This document shows, one piece after another, positions 1,467 to 32,972 of a stretch of DNA of 40,678 nucleotides. The DNA is taken from positions 1-40,678 of IMG/VR virus record IMGVR_UViG_3300031629_000995; one strand, given 5' to 3'. The notes under the pieces were generated by a model. The model saw only the letters and a program-made list of their open reading frames with translations. It was not told the DNA's origin and did no database searches. The translations under genes and the position numbers were made by a program. Source of the DNA: a virus. How positions within the stretch are numbered: the first letter of the stretch is position 1; each line of letters opens with the position of its first letter.

Positions 1467-3077
1467 TTATGATTCCCATGCCAGCTTCTTCGCTTTGTAG
1501 TCTTCCAGGAATTCTATTCTCTTATCTATCGGCGGAAGCATCATTGTGCCCAATTCCCTGAAAGATTTCATCATATCATCTTTTGTGTACCCACATGACA
1601 ACCAATTTCCCTGATAGAATATTGGTACTCCTCTATCCCAGTAGCTTTCGAGTCCGTACATATTCTTCCATACTTCTACCCATGCATCGATATAGTCCCA
1701 ATGCTCATTCTTCCACAATACAGTTGCAAGTATGAATTCATGACTACTGGGATCGGGCATTGATTGTTTAATTCTATCTTTCATAAGTGGGTCTATATTG
1801 GGATTAGCCAAAATATGATCAACTCTATCTCCAACAGGCATAACTTCAATTGGTTGCATCTCCCTATACCCATATTTATGTATGTTTCCAGTCATCTTAT
1901 TTGGTCGAGCGATACCACTTTTCTTTGGAATCATCAGAGGCATTTGCTGTACCGCTTCAGCGCGCCAGTTCTCATCTAGCCATTCATATGTTTTTTGCTG
2001 AGTTTCGGGTGTCTCGTGCGGCAGTCCAAAGATAAAACTCATCTCACCTCTATAGAAACCATTCTCTTTCAAGAATCGCTTTTTTACTTCCAAAATACCA
2101 TTTAGTATTTTTTCAGGATCGCCACCCTTGCCCATGGATTTAGCAGATGCTTTATTTGTAGACTCTATACCATACAGATGGCTATTGAATCGCATTCTAA
2201 TGAGTTCTTCAAGGTCATGTGGTCTTTGTATCATCAAATCTGCGCGGATGTATCCAGTGAAGTTTGGCTCAAAGTCTAGACGCTCTACCACATCAGCATA
2301 CTTGCGAATCTTATCTGTGTAATCATTGAATGTCTCGTCAGTTATCGCGTACTCGGTTGTGCCCCATTTCTCATAGTTTCGTTTTAAATCTTTTTCAAAA
2401 GACTCGGCTGATCTAGTGTGATCATCTTTCACCCCTAGTACAGGAAAGTTGCAGTAGTCACATTTAAAACGACAACCGCGAGAAGTTTCCATGTTCAGAG
2501 TTTCAAATGATTGTATGAAGTCTCTTTCTTCATAGTCAACAGAAAGATCCTCTAGAGGATATGCTTGCAGTTCTTTATCATGAAAACAATCTATGACTTT
2601 AACTATAGGAGCCCCGGGCATAATTTGCCACTCGTTGTATTTTGGATTCCCATCTAGAATAGAACTTATTCCAAGTTCGCCGTAACCAGTGACGCACCAG
2701 TCCACACCTATTTGTGATATAGACCAGATATCTTGACTTCCGGCAACAGTGATTATGTCCGGATACTTTTGTTTGATATACTGAAATATTCTTTTTACGT
2801 TTGCGGATGACAACCAGAATATACCACCTACTCCTACCATTCTTGTGGTTTCATCTACGCGAGAATCCACTATGGCAACTAACTCTTCGTATGTGAATGC
2901 GAAAACAAAATCAACAAGTTCAACATCTAGCCGGTGCTTTTCTCTTAGATAATGGGCTATTCGATACGTGCCAGATGCCCGACTACATACATCGTAGACA
3001 GGATCAGTCGTTTCTTGGTCTTGATTGGTATTAGTGTAAGAGGAAAATCCAGTAAATAATAAAACGTCTACAGCCAT
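1467..3077 (-). CDS. Radical SAM protein with N-terminal B12-binding-like domain
   Basis: The 536-residue protein has the layout of B12-binding-domain radical SAM enzymes. An N-terminal alpha/beta domain (about 1-170) includes a typical VAGSQD...GYGELG stretch. A radical SAM core (about 190-430) follows, with the [4Fe-4S] motif SRGCRFKCDYC (Cys202, Cys206, Cys209) and a later FGLPHETPET segment common in this group. These enzymes cleave S-adenosylmethionine to start radical chemistry. I do not see the DxHxxG cobalamin-ligand motif in the N-terminal domain, so cobalamin may not be bound in the usual way. It follows a 109-residue hypothetical gene by 15 nt in the late region. The substrate is unknown. 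Confidence 0.85.
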   Translation of the reverse strand: MAVDVLLFTGFSSYTNTNQDQETTDPVYDVCSRASGTYRIAHYLREKHRLDVELVDFVFAFTYEELVAIVDSRVDETTRMVGVGGIFWLSSANVKRIFQYIKQKYPDIITVAGSQDIWSISQIGVDWCVTGYGELGISSILDGNPKYNEWQIMPGAPIVKVIDCFHDKELQAYPLEDLSVDYEERDFIQSFETLNMETSRGCRFKCDYCNFPVLGVKDDHTRSAESFEKDLKRNYEKWGTTEYAITDETFNDYTDKIRKYADVVERLDFEPNFTGYIRADLMIQRPHDLEELIRMRFNSHLYGIESTNKASAKSMGKGGDPEKILNGILEVKKRFLKENGFYRGEMSFIFGLPHETPETQQKTYEWLDENWRAEAVQQMPLMIPKKSGIARPNKMTGNIHKYGYREMQPIEVMPVGDRVDHILANPNIDPLMKDRIKQSMPDPSSHEFILATVLWKNEHWDYIDAWVEVWKNMYGLESYWDRGVPIFYQGNWLSCGYTKDDMMKSFRELGTMMLPPIDKRIEFLEDYKAKKLAWES

Positions 3078-3092
3078 AACTTCTATCCATGA

Positions 3093-3422
3093 TTAATATA
3101 TTTTTTTCAATGAGTATCCAACTGGTGTAGTCACTTTAATAACGTGCTGAATGTTAGCAGTATCTATGAAGATAATGTTCTTATCTGACAGCTTTTTAAT
3201 TTTCTTGGCATAGTACTTCTTAGGTGCGAATGTCTCTACCCTAGTACCGTCAAACTGAATATGCACTTCACCAGGAAAGAAGATCGTCAACTCGTATTGC
3301 TCAAAGAAAAACTCTTTGAACCAGCGAACTATGCTAGGGCGTTGTGCACCCTCGTCAACGAGTGGTTTATCTTGAGGAACAGTCTCGACAATATCCACTA
3401 ACTCTTCTTTGTTTTTAGGCAT
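3093..3422 (-). CDS. Hypothetical protein (109 aa)
   Basis: This small basic protein starts 3 nt after the stop of the kinase-like gene and ends 15 nt before the radical SAM gene, so it belongs to the same transcription unit. It has an acidic N-terminus, an aromatic-rich middle (KEFFFEQYELTIFF) and a basic beta-rich C-terminal half. I recognise no family or catalytic motif. The ribosome binding site is weak, so translational coupling to the upstream gene is likely. Confidence 0.7.
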   Translation of the reverse strand: MPKNKEELVDIVETVPQDKPLVDEGAQRPSIVRWFKEFFFEQYELTIFFPGEVHIQFDGTRVETFAPKKYYAKKIKKLSDKNIIFIDTANIQHVIKVTTPVGYSLKKIY

Positions 3423-3425
3423 ATG

Positions 3426-5498
3426 TTATTTCTTCTTTTTCGGCGCGGTTATCTTAAACTTCTTAGCTTTATATTTACTAGCCGACCCACCCTTTTTAAC
3501 TTTGAATTTTTTAGATGCCTGCTTCTTCATGCCGCCTCCTTTCTTAATCCGAGTCAATTCGTTCTTGCGAACAATTGGCACCATACGAACAGCCAAGCGA
3601 CTCACAAGTCCAGAGAACTTCTGTGTCATCTTCTCAAGCCTAGCTTTCTCTGCTGGCGGCAATGCTTTAATATCACGACCTCTAGCAAAACGCTTTTTGA
3701 TTACTGACAAGGCGCCACGTTGGGCTCGCTTCTTAATTCTTGCAGGATCACCAGCTCTTCTTGAGGCTCTCATCCTAGCGACTTTCAACTTCTGTCGATT
3801 ACGTCTTGCATGGAACCTGCGCTTCATTCTACCTTGAACAGATAGTGCCTCATCAAGAGTAACATCAGCCGTAAGTTCTTCTTCTTCTTCAACATCCGCT
3901 TCAAAGTCTTCAATCTTATCGAACTCATCGAGTTCTGAATCATCGTACATGTCCAGGTCAACCATGTCATCAAATGTCAGGCTTTCTATATCTGATTCCA
4001 TTTCCAGAATTTCTACTTCAGAAAATTCATAGTCTTGTGGGAGAAGTAATGCTTCTTCTGCGTTGTCTGAGGCATACTTAGCTTTAGTCTTTGCGCCTAC
4101 AGGTTCGTCATCTTCATGTGGTTGATCATAATCTTCTGTGATAGGCTTGTTCATCGCATTCAACTTGATCAACTCTTCACGAGTTAATGGACGGGCACCA
4201 TGGTTATGCGGCACTCCCTGTCCAGGAGTCATATCTTTGTAATGTTTAGTACCTTCTGGAGTTCCCCATTCATGCTTCTGTGCAGAGTATTCTTCAGTAT
4301 AGTACTTGGCTAGTGTTCTAGCATCAACCTTATTTCTATGGAACTGTGAGGCAACTTGTTGGGCATAGTATTCCATGCCATGTCGCATTCTGCCACCACC
4401 TTCTTTCTTCTTGCGATCCACAATCTTCTTCAAAATGCCAGCCGCAACTTCGTATTCTTTCTTATTCCACGTGAATGCCAGAATTGGTTTAATAATAGAC
4501 TGTGCTTCAGCTAACTTAGCTTCCTCTACACTCTTGGCATATGCGTCTTCTGCTATCTTCTTAATAGGAGGAAGTTTGTTTGATAGTGCTTGCTTACGCT
4601 TTTCTTGTTTGCGTTGCATTGATGACTTGCCAAGGCGATCTTTCATTATTAGCTTATTTCTGCCAATATCACCACCTTCTTCTTTAACAGTATCAGATGC
4701 GTACTGTGCTTTCAGTTTTTCATGTTCTGCGGCTCGATCTTTTGCGCGTTTTGCTAAATCAACTCCACTAGACTTCAAACGGTTAGCTAACCGTTGACTT
4801 GCAGGTGCACCCTCTTTAATACCTCGCGCTTTCTTTTGATCTTTGATCCATCGAGTAGCTTTGTAATTTTTTACTGGTGATTTCACCCATGCACCAATTT
4901 TACGATACGCGCCAAGAGTAGCACCTTTCCAATCAGAGTCTTCGCCGTTGTCAACAATGTGTAGATTAGAACCAAATAAGTTTTGAAACTTACCTATGTT
5001 ATCTTGAACTGCGCTCCACATCTTTTTGACTTGGGCAGCTGGCATTGTTCTGTCACGATTCATGTTCCTACTCTGGGCAGTCTCTTCATTAGTATTAACA
5101 AAGATCATAGCGCAATCATAGCCAAGATTTTCTAACGCTTTCTTTTGAGTTTGAATCTTATTGTAATCTTTTCCAGTACCATCAATGACAAGACCAAGCC
5201 TGCCACTTAGTAGACCATCTTGCTTCATTTGTGTCAGTTTTTTTGCTCTGTCTCTGAGTGACTGTCCTTTAACCGTATAGATGTTCTCAGGTGTTGAATC
5301 CATGCCAGCCTTCTTCATTGCTGTTTCAAATGCAACATCTGAGTTTATAAGTTTTAATCCAAACGCGGTTAGTGCAGTTTGACCAACAACAAATGACTTA
5401 CCACTGCCTGGTCCGCCAGCAAGAAACACGGCTTTGAAGATGCCAGGGTCATTGATACCCTCATCTAACTCTACGAAATCTGCGAATTTTTTGTCCAT
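3426..5498 (-). CDS. Zeta-toxin/PNK-like P-loop kinase with long basic tail
   Basis: Residues about 20-200 form a zeta-toxin/AAA_33-type P-loop kinase domain. The Walker A motif is GGPGSGKS (28-35), followed by LVIDGTGKD and an arginine-rich lid-like segment (SRNMNRDRT). Such domains phosphorylate nucleic-acid ends, nucleotide sugars or small molecules; the substrate here is unknown. A lysine-rich linker carries two related segments (KAQYASDTVKEE and KAKYASDNAEEA), then a very acidic block (about 490-550), then a strongly basic C-terminal domain (about 560-690). That basic tail could bind nucleic acid or serve packaging into the head (inference). The TATAAATA box immediately upstream predicts a late transcript starting at the A of the ATG. 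Confidence 0.75.
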   Translation of the reverse strand: MDKKFADFVELDEGINDPGIFKAVFLAGGPGSGKSFVVGQTALTAFGLKLINSDVAFETAMKKAGMDSTPENIYTVKGQSLRDRAKKLTQMKQDGLLSGRLGLVIDGTGKDYNKIQTQKKALENLGYDCAMIFVNTNEETAQSRNMNRDRTMPAAQVKKMWSAVQDNIGKFQNLFGSNLHIVDNGEDSDWKGATLGAYRKIGAWVKSPVKNYKATRWIKDQKKARGIKEGAPASQRLANRLKSSGVDLAKRAKDRAAEHEKLKAQYASDTVKEEGGDIGRNKLIMKDRLGKSSMQRKQEKRKQALSNKLPPIKKIAEDAYAKSVEEAKLAEAQSIIKPILAFTWNKKEYEVAAGILKKIVDRKKKEGGGRMRHGMEYYAQQVASQFHRNKVDARTLAKYYTEEYSAQKHEWGTPEGTKHYKDMTPGQGVPHNHGARPLTREELIKLNAMNKPITEDYDQPHEDDEPVGAKTKAKYASDNAEEALLLPQDYEFSEVEILEMESDIESLTFDDMVDLDMYDDSELDEFDKIEDFEADVEEEEELTADVTLDEALSVQGRMKRRFHARRNRQKLKVARMRASRRAGDPARIKKRAQRGALSVIKKRFARGRDIKALPPAEKARLEKMTQKFSGLVSRLAVRMVPIVRKNELTRIKKGGGMKKQASKKFKVKKGGSASKYKAKKFKITAPKKKK

Positions 5499-21001: not shown

Positions 21002-21457
21002 TTAGACTTTACCACCCCTTGACATAAGTTTTTCGATTCTCATAAGGTCATCTTTAGTGAGGATTCTCATTGCCTCTTGCGCTTTGGTATTATTGTATCC
21101 AAAGTAATCTTTAATCAGTTGGAGTCTTTCTTCTTTCTCTGGCTTCAACCACTTGTTGTATCGCTTTGCTTTACGCACGATACCTTTAAGGAAATCATAC
21201 TGCAATTTAGCATCGATGTGAGGTCTAGAGTTCATCTCATTAGCCAGTTTCACAGTATCTTTTGAGTAAGACATTGCCTTATTGACAATGAATGCACTAT
21301 ACTGTTTCTCTGACCAGTCATCGACAATCAGATTCTCTTTGGTATAATTGATACTGTTCGCAAAATCAAACGGGCTGATTGCTTTCTTCTTTACCTTGTA
21401 AGTCTCTGAATCGATAGCCACTTGGGCTTTGACACCGAGAAGATTCTCCAGGCTCAT
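21002..21457 (-). CDS. 62: Clamp loader small subunit gp62
   Basis: Placed between gp44-side genes and regA as in T4, this 151-residue protein resembles the gp62 of marine T4-like phages: PFDFANSINYTKENL, FIVNKAMSYSKDTV and RKAKRYNKW are characteristic. It is shorter than T4 gp62 (187). With four gp44 subunits it loads the sliding clamp gp45. Its ATG overlaps the stop of the MazG-like gene (ATGA). Confidence 0.85.
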   Translation of the reverse strand: MSLENLLGVKAQVAIDSETYKVKKKAISPFDFANSINYTKENLIVDDWSEKQYSAFIVNKAMSYSKDTVKLANEMNSRPHIDAKLQYDFLKGIVRKAKRYNKWLKPEKEERLQLIKDYFGYNNTKAQEAMRILTKDDLMRIEKLMSRGGKV

Positions 21458-21831
21458 GTGAATAATACTTTATGGAGATCAGGCTTGAAGTAACCTTCTG
21501 GCTTCATTACTTTACCATCGTGATTCTTAATGAGTCTGCCTTCAACTACCTTACTGCGATTTGAGTCGCGCACTTCGTTCCAACATGCTTCGACTGGTAT
21601 GCCAAGGGTGCTGGCTAGACCATTGAGTACCCACATGATATCACAAATTGCATCAGCAGTTTCAATTACATCTTTGTTTTGAAATGCTTCAACAAGTTCT
21701 TCATATTCTTCCGTGATTAGATCCATATATAGGTCTTCTTGTGCCGGTGCCACTCCATACGCGGGCAAAACATTCTCAACCACTTGATTGGCTGCCATCA
21801 TAAAATCTTCTACGTCATCTTGAATTTTCAT
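21454..21831 (-). CDS. MazG-like nucleotide pyrophosphohydrolase
   Basis: The all-alpha NTP pyrophosphohydrolase pattern is visible: ITEEYEELVEAF carries the first metal-binding Glu pair, and ETADAICDIMWVL the second Glu/Asp set. Family enzymes hydrolyse (d)NTPs or related nucleotides to the monophosphate and pyrophosphate; in marine phages MazG has been proposed to act on alarmones or to recycle nucleotides. The C-terminal third (SKVVEGRLIKNHDGKVMKPE) is typical of the PRA-PH-like phage versions. It begins an operon with gp62 under an exact early promoter (21857-21885). Confidence 0.85.
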   Translation of the reverse strand: MKIQDDVEDFMMAANQVVENVLPAYGVAPAQEDLYMDLITEEYEELVEAFQNKDVIETADAICDIMWVLNGLASTLGIPVEACWNEVRDSNRSKVVEGRLIKNHDGKVMKPEGYFKPDLHKVLFT

Positions 21832-21892: not shown

Positions 21893-22042
21893 TTACCAGT
21901 TATGTATATTGCCTGCTATGATAACGAAGCATGTACCGAAGTTTACTAACACAATAATTGTGCGTATTATTGCAATCTTATCTGCTTCTGCGTCTGTGGT
22001 ACCTTCTTTCTCACCGATAGCTTTAGCCCACAATCTCCACAT
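21893..22042 (-). CDS. Small membrane protein (49 aa)
   Basis: The start overlaps the stop of the preceding micro-ORF (TGATG). The product begins MWRLWAKAIGEKEG, has a charged stretch, then one transmembrane segment (about 25-45) and ends IHNW. I recall similar short proteins in other T4-like phages, so I consider it real although shorter than most automatic gene callers accept. Function unknown. Confidence 0.7.
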   Translation of the reverse strand: MWRLWAKAIGEKEGTTDAEADKIAIIRTIIVLVNFGTCFVIIAGNIHNW

Positions 22043-22209
22043 CAGTGTGTCACTCTTTGTACTAGTACATTATAGTCTAAATCATAATCTAATGCAATAC
22101 TTTTTGCAAGATCAATCCAAAATTTTTGCATTCCCAAATCGTGGGCTCTGTGTCCACATTGGATGCAATGCAGGATTCTATGTTCGGGTGTCTTTTCTAT
22201 TTCTGACAT
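22042..22209 (-). CDS. Small CxxC protein (55 aa)
   Basis: The ATG lies 13 nt inside the end of the dioxygenase gene and the stop overlaps the next start (TGATG). The N-terminal half holds HCIQCGHRAHD, a CxxC with nearby His residues that could bind a metal. The rest is a helix rich in Asp and Tyr. The chain of overlaps with both neighbours supports a genuine gene. No family recognised. Confidence 0.65.
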   Translation of the reverse strand: MSEIEKTPEHRILHCIQCGHRAHDLGMQKFWIDLAKSIALDYDLDYNVLVQRVTH

Positions 22210-23006
22210 AAGCTTGGAACTCTTGAGTAATCAAATGCGATTCGATGAAGTACCCGCTGTTCCATTGCAGAAAACTCCCATCTCTTATGTATGCTTAACC
22301 ATTGTTCTGATATTACCACATCACCATCTTGCCAAAAATGGTGATATTGATACTTCTCCTGTGTAACATGCTGTGTAAGATATTCCATTATTTCTCGAAA
22401 TTCTTCATCCGATTTACCGGGCATGCCAAAGATTTGAAGAAAAGGAAAGTAGAGACCAGTCTTTCCAAAACTATTCGTATGCACCAACCTAAAAGGTTTA
22501 TCAGTAGAATGATGATCAACAAAGAAAGTACTATCACTATAGTTGCCATTTTTATAACCAAGTGTAATCGTACATTCATGCAGTCTTTCCTTCCAAGTTT
22601 CTGACAGATCATCATATGCGTCTATCATATTAATCCAACTGGTCTGACTTCCTTGACTGCCCTTGGCGGCACGTAACCAAATCAATGGTGCTCTGTCAGG
22701 ATTACTCGCTTGGTTGGCATGCCAATCTAATGCACTGGTATGTCCAAATAGACCTTCTTCGCCATGTTCATTCTTCTCACCAGTAACCCGAAGAATATTT
22801 GGATGACATGCAATATGCTTTGTTCTTTCTTGCTCCGTATACTCCTGACATACACCAATCTTATTGCAGAATTGGAATTGTTGTTCAAGTGTTAATGATT
22901 GATTGCGTAATACAACAAAGGTACCGCCACATACCAGTTCGGCTATAGCATGTGCAATATTTTCATCAGCGTTGGTTATGTTCATGTCAGTTTTGAATAT
23001 TTTCAC
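22197..23006 (-). CDS. TauD/TfdA-like 2OG-Fe(II) dioxygenase (HxN variant)
   Basis: The best start is the GTG at 23006, which overlaps the stop of the SPASM gene (GTGA); an ATG at 22985 is the alternative. The 269-residue protein aligns with TauD-type dioxygenases: DWHANQASNPDRAPLIWL corresponds to the WHxD region, and near the end His240 and Arg255 (SIHKRWEF ... QRVLHRIAF) fit the distal iron ligand and the 2-oxoglutarate-binding Arg. The expected Asp of the HxD pair is Asn98. Activity may therefore be altered. Substrate unknown; likely linked to the upstream radical SAM genes. Confidence 0.8.
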   Translation of the reverse strand: MKIFKTDMNITNADENIAHAIAELVCGGTFVVLRNQSLTLEQQFQFCNKIGVCQEYTEQERTKHIACHPNILRVTGEKNEHGEEGLFGHTSALDWHANQASNPDRAPLIWLRAAKGSQGSQTSWINMIDAYDDLSETWKERLHECTITLGYKNGNYSDSTFFVDHHSTDKPFRLVHTNSFGKTGLYFPFLQIFGMPGKSDEEFREIMEYLTQHVTQEKYQYHHFWQDGDVVISEQWLSIHKRWEFSAMEQRVLHRIAFDYSRVPSLCQK

Positions 23007-23254
23007 GAGCAGGTATCTATACAATACTGGCTGGGATTACCTGACTCAATTCGATCATGGTACTTGGCTTCAAGCAATCCATCATCAAGCACACTTCGCA
23101 ATGTATTCTCTCCCATTGGTGTTCCGTCAAGTCTGTTGCCGCCAGTCATGCAACACGGATAAACCTGATTATCATATGAGATAAACACATGAAGATTTTT
23201 CTGAGAAAAATCGGTGGGATCGTCATGGTTATACGAAAAACATGTCTGTGGCAT
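23003..23254 (-). CDS. SPASM-like auxiliary Fe-S domain protein (83 aa)
   Basis: A short protein with five cysteines in a SPASM/twitch-like pattern: TCFSYN, YPCCMTGG, and a terminal YCIDTC. In SPASM proteins this domain follows the radical SAM barrel in the same chain and holds auxiliary clusters. Here it is a separate frame (+1 relative to the upstream gene) overlapping it by 26 nt. It has its own ribosome binding site (AAAGGA, 5 nt before ATG). The overlap also has a T5 run where a +1 shift could fuse both frames. Confidence 0.75.
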   Translation of the reverse strand: MPQTCFSYNHDDPTDFSQKNLHVFISYDNQVYPCCMTGGNRLDGTPMGENTLRSVLDDGLLEAKYHDRIESGNPSQYCIDTCS

Positions 23255-24032
23255 ATTTATCCTTCAATTGTTTTATTTTTTCTGACATTCCAAATGCTGG
23301 TGTTAATTGATATAATATTTTGGTACCTGAGATGTCATACATGTCCAGCTTCTGAATTGGTGAATCATTTGCAATAATAGCATTACTGTTTATAAGTGGT
23401 ATAATACCAGAACTAAATGGATTGGGCATCGCATTGATATACATCTGACATAATCCATACTCTATAGCCAATTTAATTGCTGGCTCTAAATGTTCTTTGT
23501 TCTGTTCAAATAACAAGAATTGCCAGCCCGAATCTTTGGCTGTGCTAGTCTCTGAATATGCTTTCAAATTTTTCATTGCATCAGACCACTTAACATTTAC
23601 CCGATACAATTCATTTGATTTCTGTGTTGATCCATCTAAACCAAAAGTGATGTTGACTCCAAGTTTTCCCAATCTAGCATAAGTCTTTGGCTTGCCTAGC
23701 GCACCATTAGTAGCAATGTGAATTCTAATATCAGGATTCTGATCTACTAACCATTCACATATATCAGCAACTTCTTCACATGCCATAGGGTCACCGTAGT
23801 TTCCACAGAAATGTATCTTTTTAAGTTGCTTTACTAGATCGCCCAGTATATATATAACTTCAGCGAGAGTCTTAGTGGTCTGCACAAAATCATTTAATTT
23901 ACCAAATTCATCTTGCCTTTGACAGACCTTACATCGTGCCTGACAGGTGCTAGATATCTCAAGATCAACTGATACTAGACGCTCTGACCTACTCAATTCA
24001 TATCCACGCTTGCCATAATGTCTACGAGACAT
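23229..24032 (-). CDS. Radical SAM core protein
   Basis: The [4Fe-4S] motif is STCQARCKVC (Cys30, Cys34, Cys37), with GNYGDPM for SAM contact and IHIATNG and ITFGLDGSTQ strands of the partial TIM barrel. The form resembles SPASM-type peptide or protein maturases and related enzymes, but lacks its own C-terminal cluster domain, which is encoded by the next frame. Two starts are possible: ATG at 24032 (40-nt overlap with gp44) or TTG at 23996 overlapping the gp44 stop. It is inserted between clamp-loader genes 44 and 62, which are adjacent in T4. Substrate unknown. Confidence 0.85.
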   Translation of the reverse strand: MSRRHYGKRGYELSRSERLVSVDLEISSTCQARCKVCQRQDEFGKLNDFVQTTKTLAEVIYILGDLVKQLKKIHFCGNYGDPMACEEVADICEWLVDQNPDIRIHIATNGALGKPKTYARLGKLGVNITFGLDGSTQKSNELYRVNVKWSDAMKNLKAYSETSTAKDSGWQFLLFEQNKEHLEPAIKLAIEYGLCQMYINAMPNPFSSGIIPLINSNAIIANDSPIQKLDMYDISGTKILYQLTPAFGMSEKIKQLKDKYATDMFFV

Positions 24033-24928
24033 GCAGTTAGATTGATTTCTTGATCAGCCACGAATGCCGCTTTGTATTGGTAGTCAGCAATCAACAGTAC
24101 CAAATGTGGTACTTGCTTTACTTTGTCAATCAATGCGTCATAAACTTTACGATAGATGCCTTGTGGATCACTATCAACATTGTTGGCAACCCATTGACGC
24201 ATTTTCTTGAAGTCTTTATCTTTAAGACTATCGATTAAACCCTTAGTATTTATCTCCGCGAGATTACTTAGAATACCTTCATCGATTGTGCCGCCAACAG
24301 AGTACCGCTGAAGTTCATTCAGTACCCTACGATAATCTGGAAAATATTTCTTGAGCAGTTCAGCTAGTATCTTATCGGAATACTTTACGCCCTCTTCATC
24401 GAGGATGAACTTCATACGCTTGTGAAATCTTCCAGCCATTTCTGGTCGTTCTGACTTGTCCAGCTTGAAATCAACTACGGTAGTTCGGCTATGCAGTGGC
24501 TCAATGATGCGATTCTTAAAGTTGCAAGTGAATATGAACCTACAGTTCTTTGAGAACTCTTCAATGAACCCACGCAGGGCTGGCTGAGTAGAGTTGGGAT
24601 TTAGATAATCTGCTTCATCTAGAATGACAACCTTGGGTTTGTTTTCAAACGACATGGTACTTGCGAAATTCTTGATCTTGGTACGCAGGACATCGATACC
24701 AGACTCTTCCGAGCCGTTGACTACAATATAGTCACACCCCAATTCAGTGCATAGTGCGCGGGCTACTGTAGTCTTACCAGTACCAGCAGTACCACACAAC
24801 AACATATTTGGGATCTCTCCGGCGGCAACAAACTTCTTGAAGACTGCAAGTAGAGAGTCGGGCAAGATGCATTCATCTAGTGTCCGTGGACGATATCGCT
24901 CAACGAATAAAAATTCTTTGTTTTCCAT
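23993..24928 (-). CDS. 44: Clamp loader large subunit gp44
   Basis: At 311 residues it is close to T4 gp44 (319). It is an AAA+ ATPase with Walker A CGTAGTGKTT (about 45-54), Walker B VVILDEADYL, and sensor 1 FIFTCNFKNRI followed by the arginine-finger region SRTTVVDF. With gp62 it loads gp45 onto primer ends. GGAG lies 5 nt before the ATG. The operon gap to the peroxiredoxin gene is 30 nt. Confidence 0.95.
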   Translation of the reverse strand: MENKEFLFVERYRPRTLDECILPDSLLAVFKKFVAAGEIPNMLLCGTAGTGKTTVARALCTELGCDYIVVNGSEESGIDVLRTKIKNFASTMSFENKPKVVILDEADYLNPNSTQPALRGFIEEFSKNCRFIFTCNFKNRIIEPLHSRTTVVDFKLDKSERPEMAGRFHKRMKFILDEEGVKYSDKILAELLKKYFPDYRRVLNELQRYSVGGTIDEGILSNLAEINTKGLIDSLKDKDFKKMRQWVANNVDSDPQGIYRKVYDALIDKVKQVPHLVLLIADYQYKAAFVADQEINLTACLVDIMASVDMN

Positions 24929-24958: not shown

Positions 24959-25567
24959 TTAACTCATTTTATCTTTGGAGTCAAGACCTTCAAACAAAGT
25001 TAATTGCAGTTCTCTGCCTTTAGCAAGAGGAGATTCTAGTTGTATATATTCTAATATCTTTTCGGGTGCAGTTTCTCCATACGGATCATCTTGAGCATTG
25101 TCACACATTCCAGGTTCTATCCACGATTGCTCGATAACACCATCATTGCACAGAATAGCAAATCTCCAAGATCGCTGACCGAATGTTAGATTACCCTTAT
25201 CGACTAGCATACTAATAGCACTAGTAAATTCACCAGAACCATCAGGAATCACTTTTACATTCTTTATGTTAGCCCACCTAGACCAAGCATTCATCACAAA
25301 AGAATCATTCACTGACATGCAGTAGATTTCATCCACACCAGATTCAATAAAATCATCGTACAGTGATTCAAATCCAGGCAGTTGCTTTGTGGTGCAGGTA
25401 GGAGTAAATGCTCCAGGCAATGAAAACAGCACCACTCTTTTATCTTTGAAGACATCCGCTGTCGTTAGGTGCTCCCATCGATATGGGTTATCACCTTCTA
25501 CTGTCTCATCACGAACCCTAGTATTCCATTTCACCAGGGGCATTCTATTTCCAACTGCAATATTCAT
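24959..25567 (-). CDS. Peroxiredoxin (Prx5-like)
   Basis: The active site SLPGAFTPTCTTKQLPGFE has the peroxidatic Cys in the PxxxTxxC context of Prx5-type peroxiredoxins. The GVDEIYCMSVND and FGQRSWRFAIL strands complete the thioredoxin fold. It would reduce hydrogen peroxide or organic peroxides with electrons from thioredoxin, glutaredoxin or glutathione. Length fits the family, with about 30 extra C-terminal residues. It lies between genes 45 and 44, which are neighbours in T4, so it is an accessory insertion. AGGA precedes the ATG. Confidence 0.88.
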   Translation of the reverse strand: MNIAVGNRMPLVKWNTRVRDETVEGDNPYRWEHLTTADVFKDKRVVLFSLPGAFTPTCTTKQLPGFESLYDDFIESGVDEIYCMSVNDSFVMNAWSRWANIKNVKVIPDGSGEFTSAISMLVDKGNLTFGQRSWRFAILCNDGVIEQSWIEPGMCDNAQDDPYGETAPEKILEYIQLESPLAKGRELQLTLFEGLDSKDKMS

Positions 25568-31049: not shown

Positions 31050-31673
31050 TTATTTAACGACTTTCTTTTTTATTTTCTTTTTATTTTCAGCCGCTGCCGC
31101 TTTTTCGGCTTCTTTGTTCTCTTTTTCGATCAAAGTGGTCTTTTTCTTCAGTCTGACAAACACTTCTGCCGGGCTAAACCATACATCCTTGCCTTCAATC
31201 ACCGCATTGATCTCATCTTCATCAAGGAAATGCTGGTACACATCGTGCATTAGGTCAGATATCCAATCGGAATCATGTAGCACTTGAGATGCCATTTCAT
31301 TTCCTTTGCCCCATGCGGCACCGGAGTAAGTATGTACCATAAACTGACTATGATCTGATATCTCACATACATCTCCCTGTAGGAAGATCATCGTAGCGGC
31401 AGACATGCAAGCACCCTCTATGGATGTGACAATAGTAGCAGGAGTCTCCCGCATGGCTCTTATCATTTGAATTGCTGTATTGATCTGTCCACCGTAGGAA
31501 TTGATGTGAACATAAATTACGTCTTCAGCGGTGGCTGACCTGAACAATTGATTCCATTCTATATACTCATCTGGTCCTTCGATCTCATCATGTAGATAGA
31601 GATCATATGTTCTAGACATTGTACGTTCAAAAATTTTATTACTGGTTAGTGCATCTAATTTAAACTCGCTCAT
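31050..31673 (-). CDS. ClpP-like serine protease
   Basis: Start at the ATG at 31673 (MSEFKLDAL). The ClpP fold is clear: YVHINSYGGQINTAIQMI, the nucleophile Ser in GACMSAATMIFLQG, the His in FMVHTYSGAAWGKGNE and the third acid near GKDVWFSPAEV. The C-terminus is replaced by a Lys/Glu/Ala-rich tail (KEAEKAAAAENKKKIKKK) that is not part of usual ClpP. It may assemble with host Clp ATPases or act on its own targets. It overlaps the upstream gene by 14 nt. Confidence 0.88.
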   Translation of the reverse strand: MSEFKLDALTSNKIFERTMSRTYDLYLHDEIEGPDEYIEWNQLFRSATAEDVIYVHINSYGGQINTAIQMIRAMRETPATIVTSIEGACMSAATMIFLQGDVCEISDHSQFMVHTYSGAAWGKGNEMASQVLHDSDWISDLMHDVYQHFLDEDEINAVIEGKDVWFSPAEVFVRLKKKTTLIEKENKEAEKAAAAENKKKIKKKVVK

Positions 31674-32028
31674 AATATCTGGTAACCGCCTGTATCTTTT
31701 CAATTTGTTTATCAATAATGGCTGAACGGTTCGGCCAGTGAATGTATTCTTTGTCGGGATTTTTCTTTAAGTTTGTAAGCAGAGGAAGAATTAAGTCTTC
31801 CAAATCTCTTAGCTTGCCAGCTATATCTCCTTCTAGTAATGTCCGGTGTTCTGTCAAAACACCAGCGTTATCCATATCCAGAATTCTGTTCTCAATTTCG
31901 TAAAGTTTTTTCATTACTCCATCGAGAGCATCATCTGGAAGTGATGCAGTAGTTGAGGCAGGCGTAGGCTGTTGAGACTGCGGGGCTTCATCTACTGCGG
32001 TAAATCCGAAATCAAAATCATCAGACAT
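31660..32028 (-). CDS. Conserved phage protein (122 aa)
   Basis: I start at the ATG at 32028 (MSDDFDFGFTAVDE), a beginning I recall from other marine T4-like phages. A Pro/Thr/Ser-rich linker precedes a helical domain (about 40-122) with EYIHWPNRSAIIDKQI. Function unknown. It overlaps iscU by 8 nt and the ClpP-like gene by 14 nt. Confidence 0.8.
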   Translation of the reverse strand: MSDDFDFGFTAVDEAPQSQQPTPASTTASLPDDALDGVMKKLYEIENRILDMDNAGVLTEHRTLLEGDIAGKLRDLEDLILPLLTNLKKNPDKEYIHWPNRSAIIDKQIEKIQAVTRYYERV

Positions 32029-32401
32029 TGTTCTTTTCCCTGTAGTTCTGTACTGCGGCTTTGATAGCATCTTCTGCTAATACCGAGCAGTGTATCTTTA
32101 CTGGCGGTAGGGCAAGTTCGGTTGCCAACTGAGTGTTTTTTATCTCCGACGCCTCATCCAGTGTAGCACCTTTTACCCATTCTGTCAATAGGCTAGATGA
32201 AGCAATTGCACTTCCGCATCCATAGGTCTTGAACTTCGCATCAACAATAATGTCATTCTCAACCTGTATCTGTAAACGCATAACATCACCACATGCTGGA
32301 GCTCCAACCATGCCAGTTCCAATGTTTGCTTTACTATCATCCAACTTACCCACATTACGCGGGTTCTCATAATGATCTAATACGGCTTCGCTATATGCCA
32401 T
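32021..32401 (-). CDS. iscU: Fe-S cluster scaffold IscU
   Basis: A full-length IscU (126 residues). All ligands are present: Cys37 with Asp39 (GAPACGDV), Cys62 (TYGCGSAIASSS) and Cys105 (KIHCSVLAEDA). The LPPVK motif recognised by the HscA chaperone (98-102) is also intact. IscU assembles [2Fe-2S]/[4Fe-4S] clusters with sulfur from IscS; the phage encodes no partner here, so it would use host IscS and HscA/B. It lies between peptide deformylase (0 nt gap) and a small gene. It could support the phage radical SAM enzymes (inference). Confidence 0.93.
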   Translation of the reverse strand: MAYSEAVLDHYENPRNVGKLDDSKANIGTGMVGAPACGDVMRLQIQVENDIIVDAKFKTYGCGSAIASSSLLTEWVKGATLDEASEIKNTQLATELALPPVKIHCSVLAEDAIKAAVQNYREKNNV

Positions 32402-32938
32402 CTAGTGTCTCCTATTAAATGCCTTTACACGCTTATTTAATGATTTCATCGCTCTATCGAGTTTAAACTTAGACACACGAGACATGAAGTTAAATCCTAA
32501 CATATGATCGTATTCATGTAATGCAATTCTCGCGGCTAGACCAAGAAATTTTTCGGTATGTTCTTCCTGATCTGCATCGAAATATGTTATCGTACACTCA
32601 GCGGGTCTCTTTATATTTAGACGTAGACCAGGAATACTCAGGCAGCCTTCTTGCATCATTATCTGCTCATGACTTGCCCCGATCATAACTGGGTTGAAAC
32701 ATACTCTTTCAAACTGCTCATCATTTTTTGGGTTGCGTACACCAAGTACCATAACTGACATATCTAATCCCACTTGGTTAGCAGATAAGCCAACACCACC
32801 AAGTTCAGTCATTTTTAATCTGAGTTTAGATGCGATTTCTTTGCCATCATTTTCCTCAAAATCAAACTTCTTTGGCGCGATCTTCAATATAGGATCGACA
32901 ATGGAAACTAAATTTAATTCATCACTCAAGTATTTCAT
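32402..32938 (-). CDS. def: Peptide deformylase
   Basis: I prefer the ATG at 32938 (MKYLSDELN, 178 residues); a TTG five codons earlier directly abuts its only purine run. The three motifs are present: GVGLSANQVG, EGCLSIPG and HEYDH, with the Cys and two His as metal ligands and Glu as catalyst. It removes formyl groups from new proteins. Deformylase genes are common in marine T4-like phages. A TATAAATA late promoter lies 35 bp before the ATG, and iscU follows directly. Confidence 0.92.
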   Translation of the reverse strand: MKYLSDELNLVSIVDPILKIAPKKFDFEENDGKEIASKLRLKMTELGGVGLSANQVGLDMSVMVLGVRNPKNDEQFERVCFNPVMIGASHEQIMMQEGCLSIPGLRLNIKRPAECTITYFDADQEEHTEKFLGLAARIALHEYDHMLGFNFMSRVSKFKLDRAMKSLNKRVKAFNRRH

Positions 32939-32972
32939 AATATATTTTACCAACTCTTTGAATTATTTTATA

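Follow-up and report, generated by a model that had tools for sequence, protein, structure and literature searches.

The junction between the clamp-loader genes gp44 and gp62 of a T4-like marine phage, represented by a 40.7-kb IMG/VR virus record (the window, i.e., the whole stretch of DNA analysed), carries genes for a radical SAM (rSAM) core protein, a SPASM-like Fe-S protein and a TauD-like protein, all three of which are genuine coding sequences that are subject to purifying selection and are also conserved among marine relatives of the phage. The block can tentatively be read as two functional units. The first would be one radical SAM enzyme made as two co-translated polypeptides, a 267-aa catalytic core and an 83-aa twitch-type domain for an auxiliary [4Fe-4S] cluster (the cluster number is likewise a prediction), which probably assemble into a two-subunit enzyme and whose gene appears to descend from a one-piece ancestor and to have been split later. 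The second would be an Fe(II)/2OG enzyme of TauD fold whose 2-His-1-Asn site is atypical and which seems to be a widespread resident of this slot. In the clade of the window the two units may act in sequence on one substrate, perhaps a nucleotide or a nucleotide-activated small molecule rather than a peptide. For this combined reading, a two-subunit rSAM enzyme and an atypical 2OG oxygenase working one after the other, we put the chances slightly under even.

Gene content of the gp44-gp62 junction

The gene order on the minus strand is gp45, peroxiredoxin, gp44, rSAM, SPASM-like, TauD, a 55-aa CxxC ORF, a 49-aa ORF, PRA-PH/MazG-like, gp62, regA, hsp20 and gp43. The features discussed here are the following.

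24959-25567, minus strand, peroxiredoxin, between gp45 and gp44 (upstream of gp44)
23993-24928, minus strand, gp44 clamp-loader large subunit, flank (phrog_168, E=1.3e-119)
23229-24032, minus strand, radical SAM core protein, 267 aa, CxxxCxxC at residues 30-37 (PF04055, 42.5 bits; conserved in L004-L006, L015 and L017)
23229-23254, minus strand, 26-nt overlap of the rSAM stop and the SPASM start (common to L004, L005, L006, L015 and L017)
23003-23254, minus strand, SPASM/twitch-type auxiliary Fe-S protein (P0002), separate, 83 aa (homology to the fused L019; conserved Cys)
22197-22985, minus strand, putative TauD-fold Fe(II)/2OG enzyme, H89-A-N91 ... H233 in place of HxD...H (PF02668, 111 bits)
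22042-22209, minus strand, CxxC ORF, 55 aa (relatives in L005 and L150)
21893-22042, minus strand, 49-aa ORF, phrog_1679 (also between gp44 and gp62 in many cassette-free marine T4-like loci)
21454-21831, minus strand, PRA-PH/MazG-like nucleotide pyrophosphohydrolase (L138 and L139 have it in a slot that lacks the cassette)
21002-21457, minus strand, gp62 clamp-loader small subunit, flank (PF16790, phrog_225)

The original prediction had placed an rSAM core, a separate SPASM-like protein, a TauD-like protein and a CxxC ORF between gp44 and gp62, and its coordinates for them proved exact, while the PRA-PH/MazG-like and 49-aa genes of the same gap and the peroxiredoxin upstream of gp44 were absent from it. 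The genes had also been described as joined by overlapping starts and stops. This is correct for rSAM and SPASM (26 nt) and for TauD and the CxxC ORF (13 nt), and overlaps are also present between gp44 and rSAM (40 nt) and between the CxxC and 49-aa ORFs (1 nt), but SPASM and TauD are separated by a gap, the TauD ATG being located 17 nt past the SPASM stop.

The same gene order was found again in independent contigs: gp44, rSAM and SPASM are kept in L003 (identical), L004, L005 and L006, and so is TauD as far as the contigs extend. Between the window and L005, dN/dS is 0.16 for rSAM, 0.05 for SPASM, 0.13 for TauD, 0.38 for the CxxC ORF and 0.34 for the 49-aa ORF. Since the order recurs in independent contigs and dN/dS is low for rSAM, SPASM and TauD, the cassette goes beyond chance. 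The CxxC micro-protein, in turn, which had been counted as a part of it, is poorly conserved, and we rejected it as a core member because only two relatives were detected, in L005 (85% identical) and in L150 (49 aa), the latter without the Cys pair.

Elsewhere the window encodes an IscU-type Fe-S scaffold protein (32021-32401; NifU_N, E=1.8e-52), and in G001, a relative of 165 kb, there are one IscU match, eight rSAM matches and one TauD. This gene set is in line with that of T4-like environmental phage genomes reported to carry IscU together with several rSAM genes (Nishimura et al., 2017, PMC5332604); the part of that paper considered here contains no description of a split rSAM or of a TauD linkage. 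The window also has a second, B12-type radical SAM protein (1467-3077), nearest to PhpK-family P-methyltransferases, although at 75.9 bits against a cut-off of 600 bits. A ClpP-like protease (31050-31715) and a peptide-deformylase-like gene (32402-32953) were called from sequence motifs only.

Association of the rSAM pair with TauD

The gp44-gp62 junction is a site of extra genes for many marine T4-like phages, and these genes are of many different kinds. Of 77 related loci, 34 have gp44 and gp62 at most 60 nt apart, and in L138 and L139, whose gp44 is 96% identical, the order is gp44-MazG-gp62 with the cassette absent. TauD alone, without rSAM, occupies the slot in 18 non-redundant loci. The rSAM, SPASM and TauD genes occur there together in seven non-redundant loci, all belonging to one clade (support 94; trees here and below are quick searches with support by SH-aLRT only), in which TauD of the window and of L017 are 66% identical and the trio is kept in all seven. 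The simplest history would be a single gain of the rSAM pair between gp44 and a resident TauD, after which the pair was kept, the alternative being loss elsewhere. Codon usage deviates from that of the phage core genes in TauD and does not in rSAM, which is weak evidence that misfits TauD as the older resident. Peroxiredoxin is present in 16 of 16 TauD-bearing slot loci covering the site vs. 31 of 68 TauD-free gp44 loci, counts that come from lineages not independent of each other.

Beyond the slot, L098 has the order gp41-thyX-rSAM-SPASM-TauD at an unrelated site, with a distant split rSAM of the type found in the Pelagibacter phage Mosig EXVC030M (see below), and in L031 a fused rSAM abuts TauD. 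Judged by changes on the TauD tree, rSAM-TauD adjacency was gained about three times. At that thyX site, TauD proteins closely related to the one of L098 (L095-L097) are found without the rSAM pair, and L015 has rSAM and SPASM without an adjacent TauD. Altogether, rSAM was found in the retrieved flanks of five of the 47 TauD loci and TauD in those of six of the 160 rSAM loci, being absent from the other 154.

The claim of a joint modification pathway thus stands in part. It is favoured by the conserved co-directional block in a replication operon, by purifying selection, by the retention of the trio and by the recurrence of the adjacency, and it is weakened by the slot loci with TauD alone and the 154 rSAM loci without a flanking TauD. 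Scattering of the genes in related phages, or frames free of purifying selection, had been named as grounds for giving it up; scattering is partly observed, whereas the frames do show purifying selection. Alternatively, TauD and the split rSAM enzyme may be independent cargo that accumulated where the replication operon has a permissive junction, with shared transcription and no shared substrate. The 18 solitary TauD loci, the few cases in which either gene is near the other and the variety of genes filling the junction all speak for such cargo, but not the retention of the trio in every locus of its clade or the adjacency with unrelated rSAM lineages elsewhere (L098, L031); we consider it a serious candidate, if one somewhat below an even chance. 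Because separate occurrences are many, each enzyme can probably work alone, and because the adjacency recurs, a shared pathway in some lineages is plausible. As for the window clade, the chance that the rSAM enzyme and TauD act jointly is about even.

Iron motif of the TauD-like protein

Both profile and fold place the protein in the TauD family: PF02668 scores 111 vs. 27 bits, and the nearest solved folds of its structure model (pLDDT 94) are AAD-1, RdpA, TauD and ScoE (Foldseek E <1e-13). With these TauD/TfdA dioxygenases it has the fold, both His and the C-terminal Arg in common, but it has Asn for the Asp iron ligand. The first metal motif is W-H-A-N, the Asn of which falls on the Asp of HxD in the profile-PDB alignment, and instead of the HxD...H iron triad of TauD-type 2OG dioxygenases the protein has HxN...H. 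The protein named a TauD-like dioxygenase in the original prediction is therefore not of the usual TauD type. HxN is present in all 50 alignable distinct TauD-like proteins of the phage clade (support 100), the loci having been retrieved with patterns not touching the motif; the last scan pattern favours N or H at the motif, and its counts are excluded from this claim. HxD, by contrast, is found in each of the 29 best cellular matches that could be scored, which come from 398 Pseudomonadota genomes. The exceptions in the cellular collection, L218 (HxN) and L217 (HxH), are contigs with phage-like neighbour genes; the L217 gene (3353-4192), a TauD relative with H-x-H, is on a phage-like contig that was binned into a MAG of a betaproteobacterium. 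Since phage TauD-like proteins outside the clade may have HxD (as in L450-L454), HxN is a feature of this clade and not of phages generally.

Halogenases carry a smaller residue at the ligand position (HxG/HxA). The phage protein agrees with 2OG halogenases in having no carboxylate there, but its residue is Asn, which is not known from them. AspH and the 2OG halogenases, like the phage TauD, do without the Asp/Glu ligand of HxD/E...H, and the 2-His site of human AspH is catalytically active with no carboxylate ligand (PMC8252765); unlike the phage protein, AspH is not a TauD-family member. No report of a His-x-Asn 2OG enzyme was found in the open-access literature searched. Because the two His and the C-terminal Arg pair never vary, we expect the metal site to work. 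The clade-wide loss of the carboxylate ligand would also suit a non-catalyst, 2OG-binding or regulatory, but such a role seems unlikely in view of the invariant His and Arg residues, the dN/dS of 0.13 and the activity of AspH.

Viral tauD has been published as a taurine/sulphur-starvation gene (PMC9469726). Because Asn replaces the Asp iron ligand throughout the HxN clade, the taurine/sulphur reading, set here against the sequences of this clade, is doubtful for its members, and the clade casts doubt on what is a common metagenomic annotation. These proteins would also be natural material for studies of the part that a carboxylate ligand plays at the iron. Substrate aside, both the HxN oxygenase and the split rSAM would be variants of known enzyme types, which is testable.

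The rSAM core, its detached domain and the substrate

The core belongs to the radical SAM superfamily (PF04055, 42.5 bits against a cut-off of 29.5), and its C30, C34 and C37 are invariant among relatives. Against NF033640 (twitch domain rSAM, NCBIfam) the enzyme sequence scores 51.7 bits, well short of the 170-bit cut-off. P0002 remains under the cut-off of the SPASM profile (PF13186, 15.1 vs. 21.5 bits). It is, however, 38% identical to the C-terminus of the fused L019 (residues 287-389, E=2e-18), and its C5, C34, C35, C78 and C82 are invariant across split and fused relatives, which assigns it to the SPASM/twitch proteins by homology. The SPASM-like protein had been counted as a cassette member of its own; because relatives encode a single rSAM-twitch protein, with which it aligns and shares the Cys, P0002 is by homology the detached C-terminal domain of the same rSAM enzyme and not a further enzyme. 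The CxxxCxxC core and a Cys-rich domain of C-terminal type, C-x(n)-PCC-x(n)-CxxxC, are common to the phage system and to SPASM/twitch rSAM enzymes (nearest folds of a fused relative: BlsE 7vob, CteB 5why, SuiB, DesII, anSME and PqqE). These enzymes are single polypeptides, whereas in the window and its relatives the core and the auxiliary domain are encoded in separate overlapping frames. If the enzyme has two subunits, the role of the auxiliary-cluster domain could be tested directly, with the domain added or omitted. A search of 50,697 phage records with P0002 gave no match, and no SPASM domain encoded on its own came up in the open-access literature searched.

BlsE and DesII act on small molecules. 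The model of the fused rSAM relative (pLDDT 82) weakly resembles both (TM about 0.5), and peptide maturases about equally; from this we infer a preference for a nucleotide-linked small molecule as the substrate. In a RiPP-like system, a peptide of the phage or the host would be modified by the rSAM/SPASM enzyme and then tailored by the oxygenase. Such a system would fit with the solved structures closest in fold to the fused relative, which include the sactipeptide maturases CteB, SuiB and SkfB as well as anSME. The cassette has no conserved precursor-like ORF alongside it, though, the sole small ORF in the block being the poorly conserved CxxC ORF, and we regard the peptide route as improbable. 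Among 97 rSAM neighbours scanned for a pathway none was found; most are other rSAM genes and phage core genes. RfaE-type nucleotidyltransferase-like genes are located near rSAM in three contexts (L015:3181-3990, L141:4033-4791 and L144:2317-3084). Split rSAM and H-x-N TauD are present in many marine phage contigs, here beside replication genes, and it is conceivable, but at present quite a long shot, that HxN Fe/2OG enzymes with non-taurine chemistry, joined in some lineages by a two-subunit rSAM, produce a novel modified nucleotide or metabolite while the phage DNA is being replicated.

Of 160 distinct rSAM cores surveyed, 95 are fused and 32 split; for 24 no adjacent SPASM gene was found, and nine are at contig ends. 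The classes rest on length and Cys-pattern rules, and single cases may be wrong. L043 was dropped as another split since its frame breaks down after the core. In the tree, the split group of the window (six rows, support 99) groups with the fused L019-L021 (98), while Mosig genes 84 and 85, L098 and most other splits are in a distant second group (65 rows, support 100). Because the two groups lie apart in the tree, the split, which is conserved in the window clade, arose at least twice, the second time in Mosig-type pelagiphage relatives. In the cultured phage Mosig EXVC030M an rSAM core (gene 84) is followed by a separate SPASM-like protein (gene 85, annotated as hypothetical) with an 8-nt overlap, and the genome also encodes an HxN TauD and a peroxiredoxin, the latter at a distance of two genes from TauD. 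It differs from the window in that the core is 25% identical, the split is independent and TauD is about 5 kb off on the other strand.

A sequencing error as the origin of the split was rejected, since contigs independent of one another, with identities as low as 54%, show the same overlap. Every member of the window group has an overlap of 26 nt with identical ATG and TAA, and directly before the SPASM ATG there is an SD-like AAGGA (AAAGAGA in L015). Of the 32 SPASM starts in split loci, 17 are preceded by an SD-like motif, compared with 85 of 634 internal ATGs. We read this as favouring two translated proteins. Programmed frameshifting that joins the two frames into one normal rSAM-SPASM protein would agree with the conserved sequence of the overlap, including TTTTCGTATAA, which is kept in five relatives, but it is very unlikely given the ATG and SD-like motif of the SPASM frame in the window clade and the junctions of the other split group, which is of independent origin and in which stop and start mostly overlap over a short distance, as is usual for coupled genes.

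In L006 there is an in-frame stop after the window-type rSAM start (2981-3020), and its copy must start downstream. One contig, L234, has a tandem of two split rSAM/SPASM pairs (2579-4482). Short rSAM cores (~210 aa) with no SPASM gene found adjacent form a clade (L282, L283, L289, L297-L300, L302, L305 and L310), and in several of its members the gene after the core belongs to a single conserved family, whose proteins begin with MxxKLLLNAGYP.
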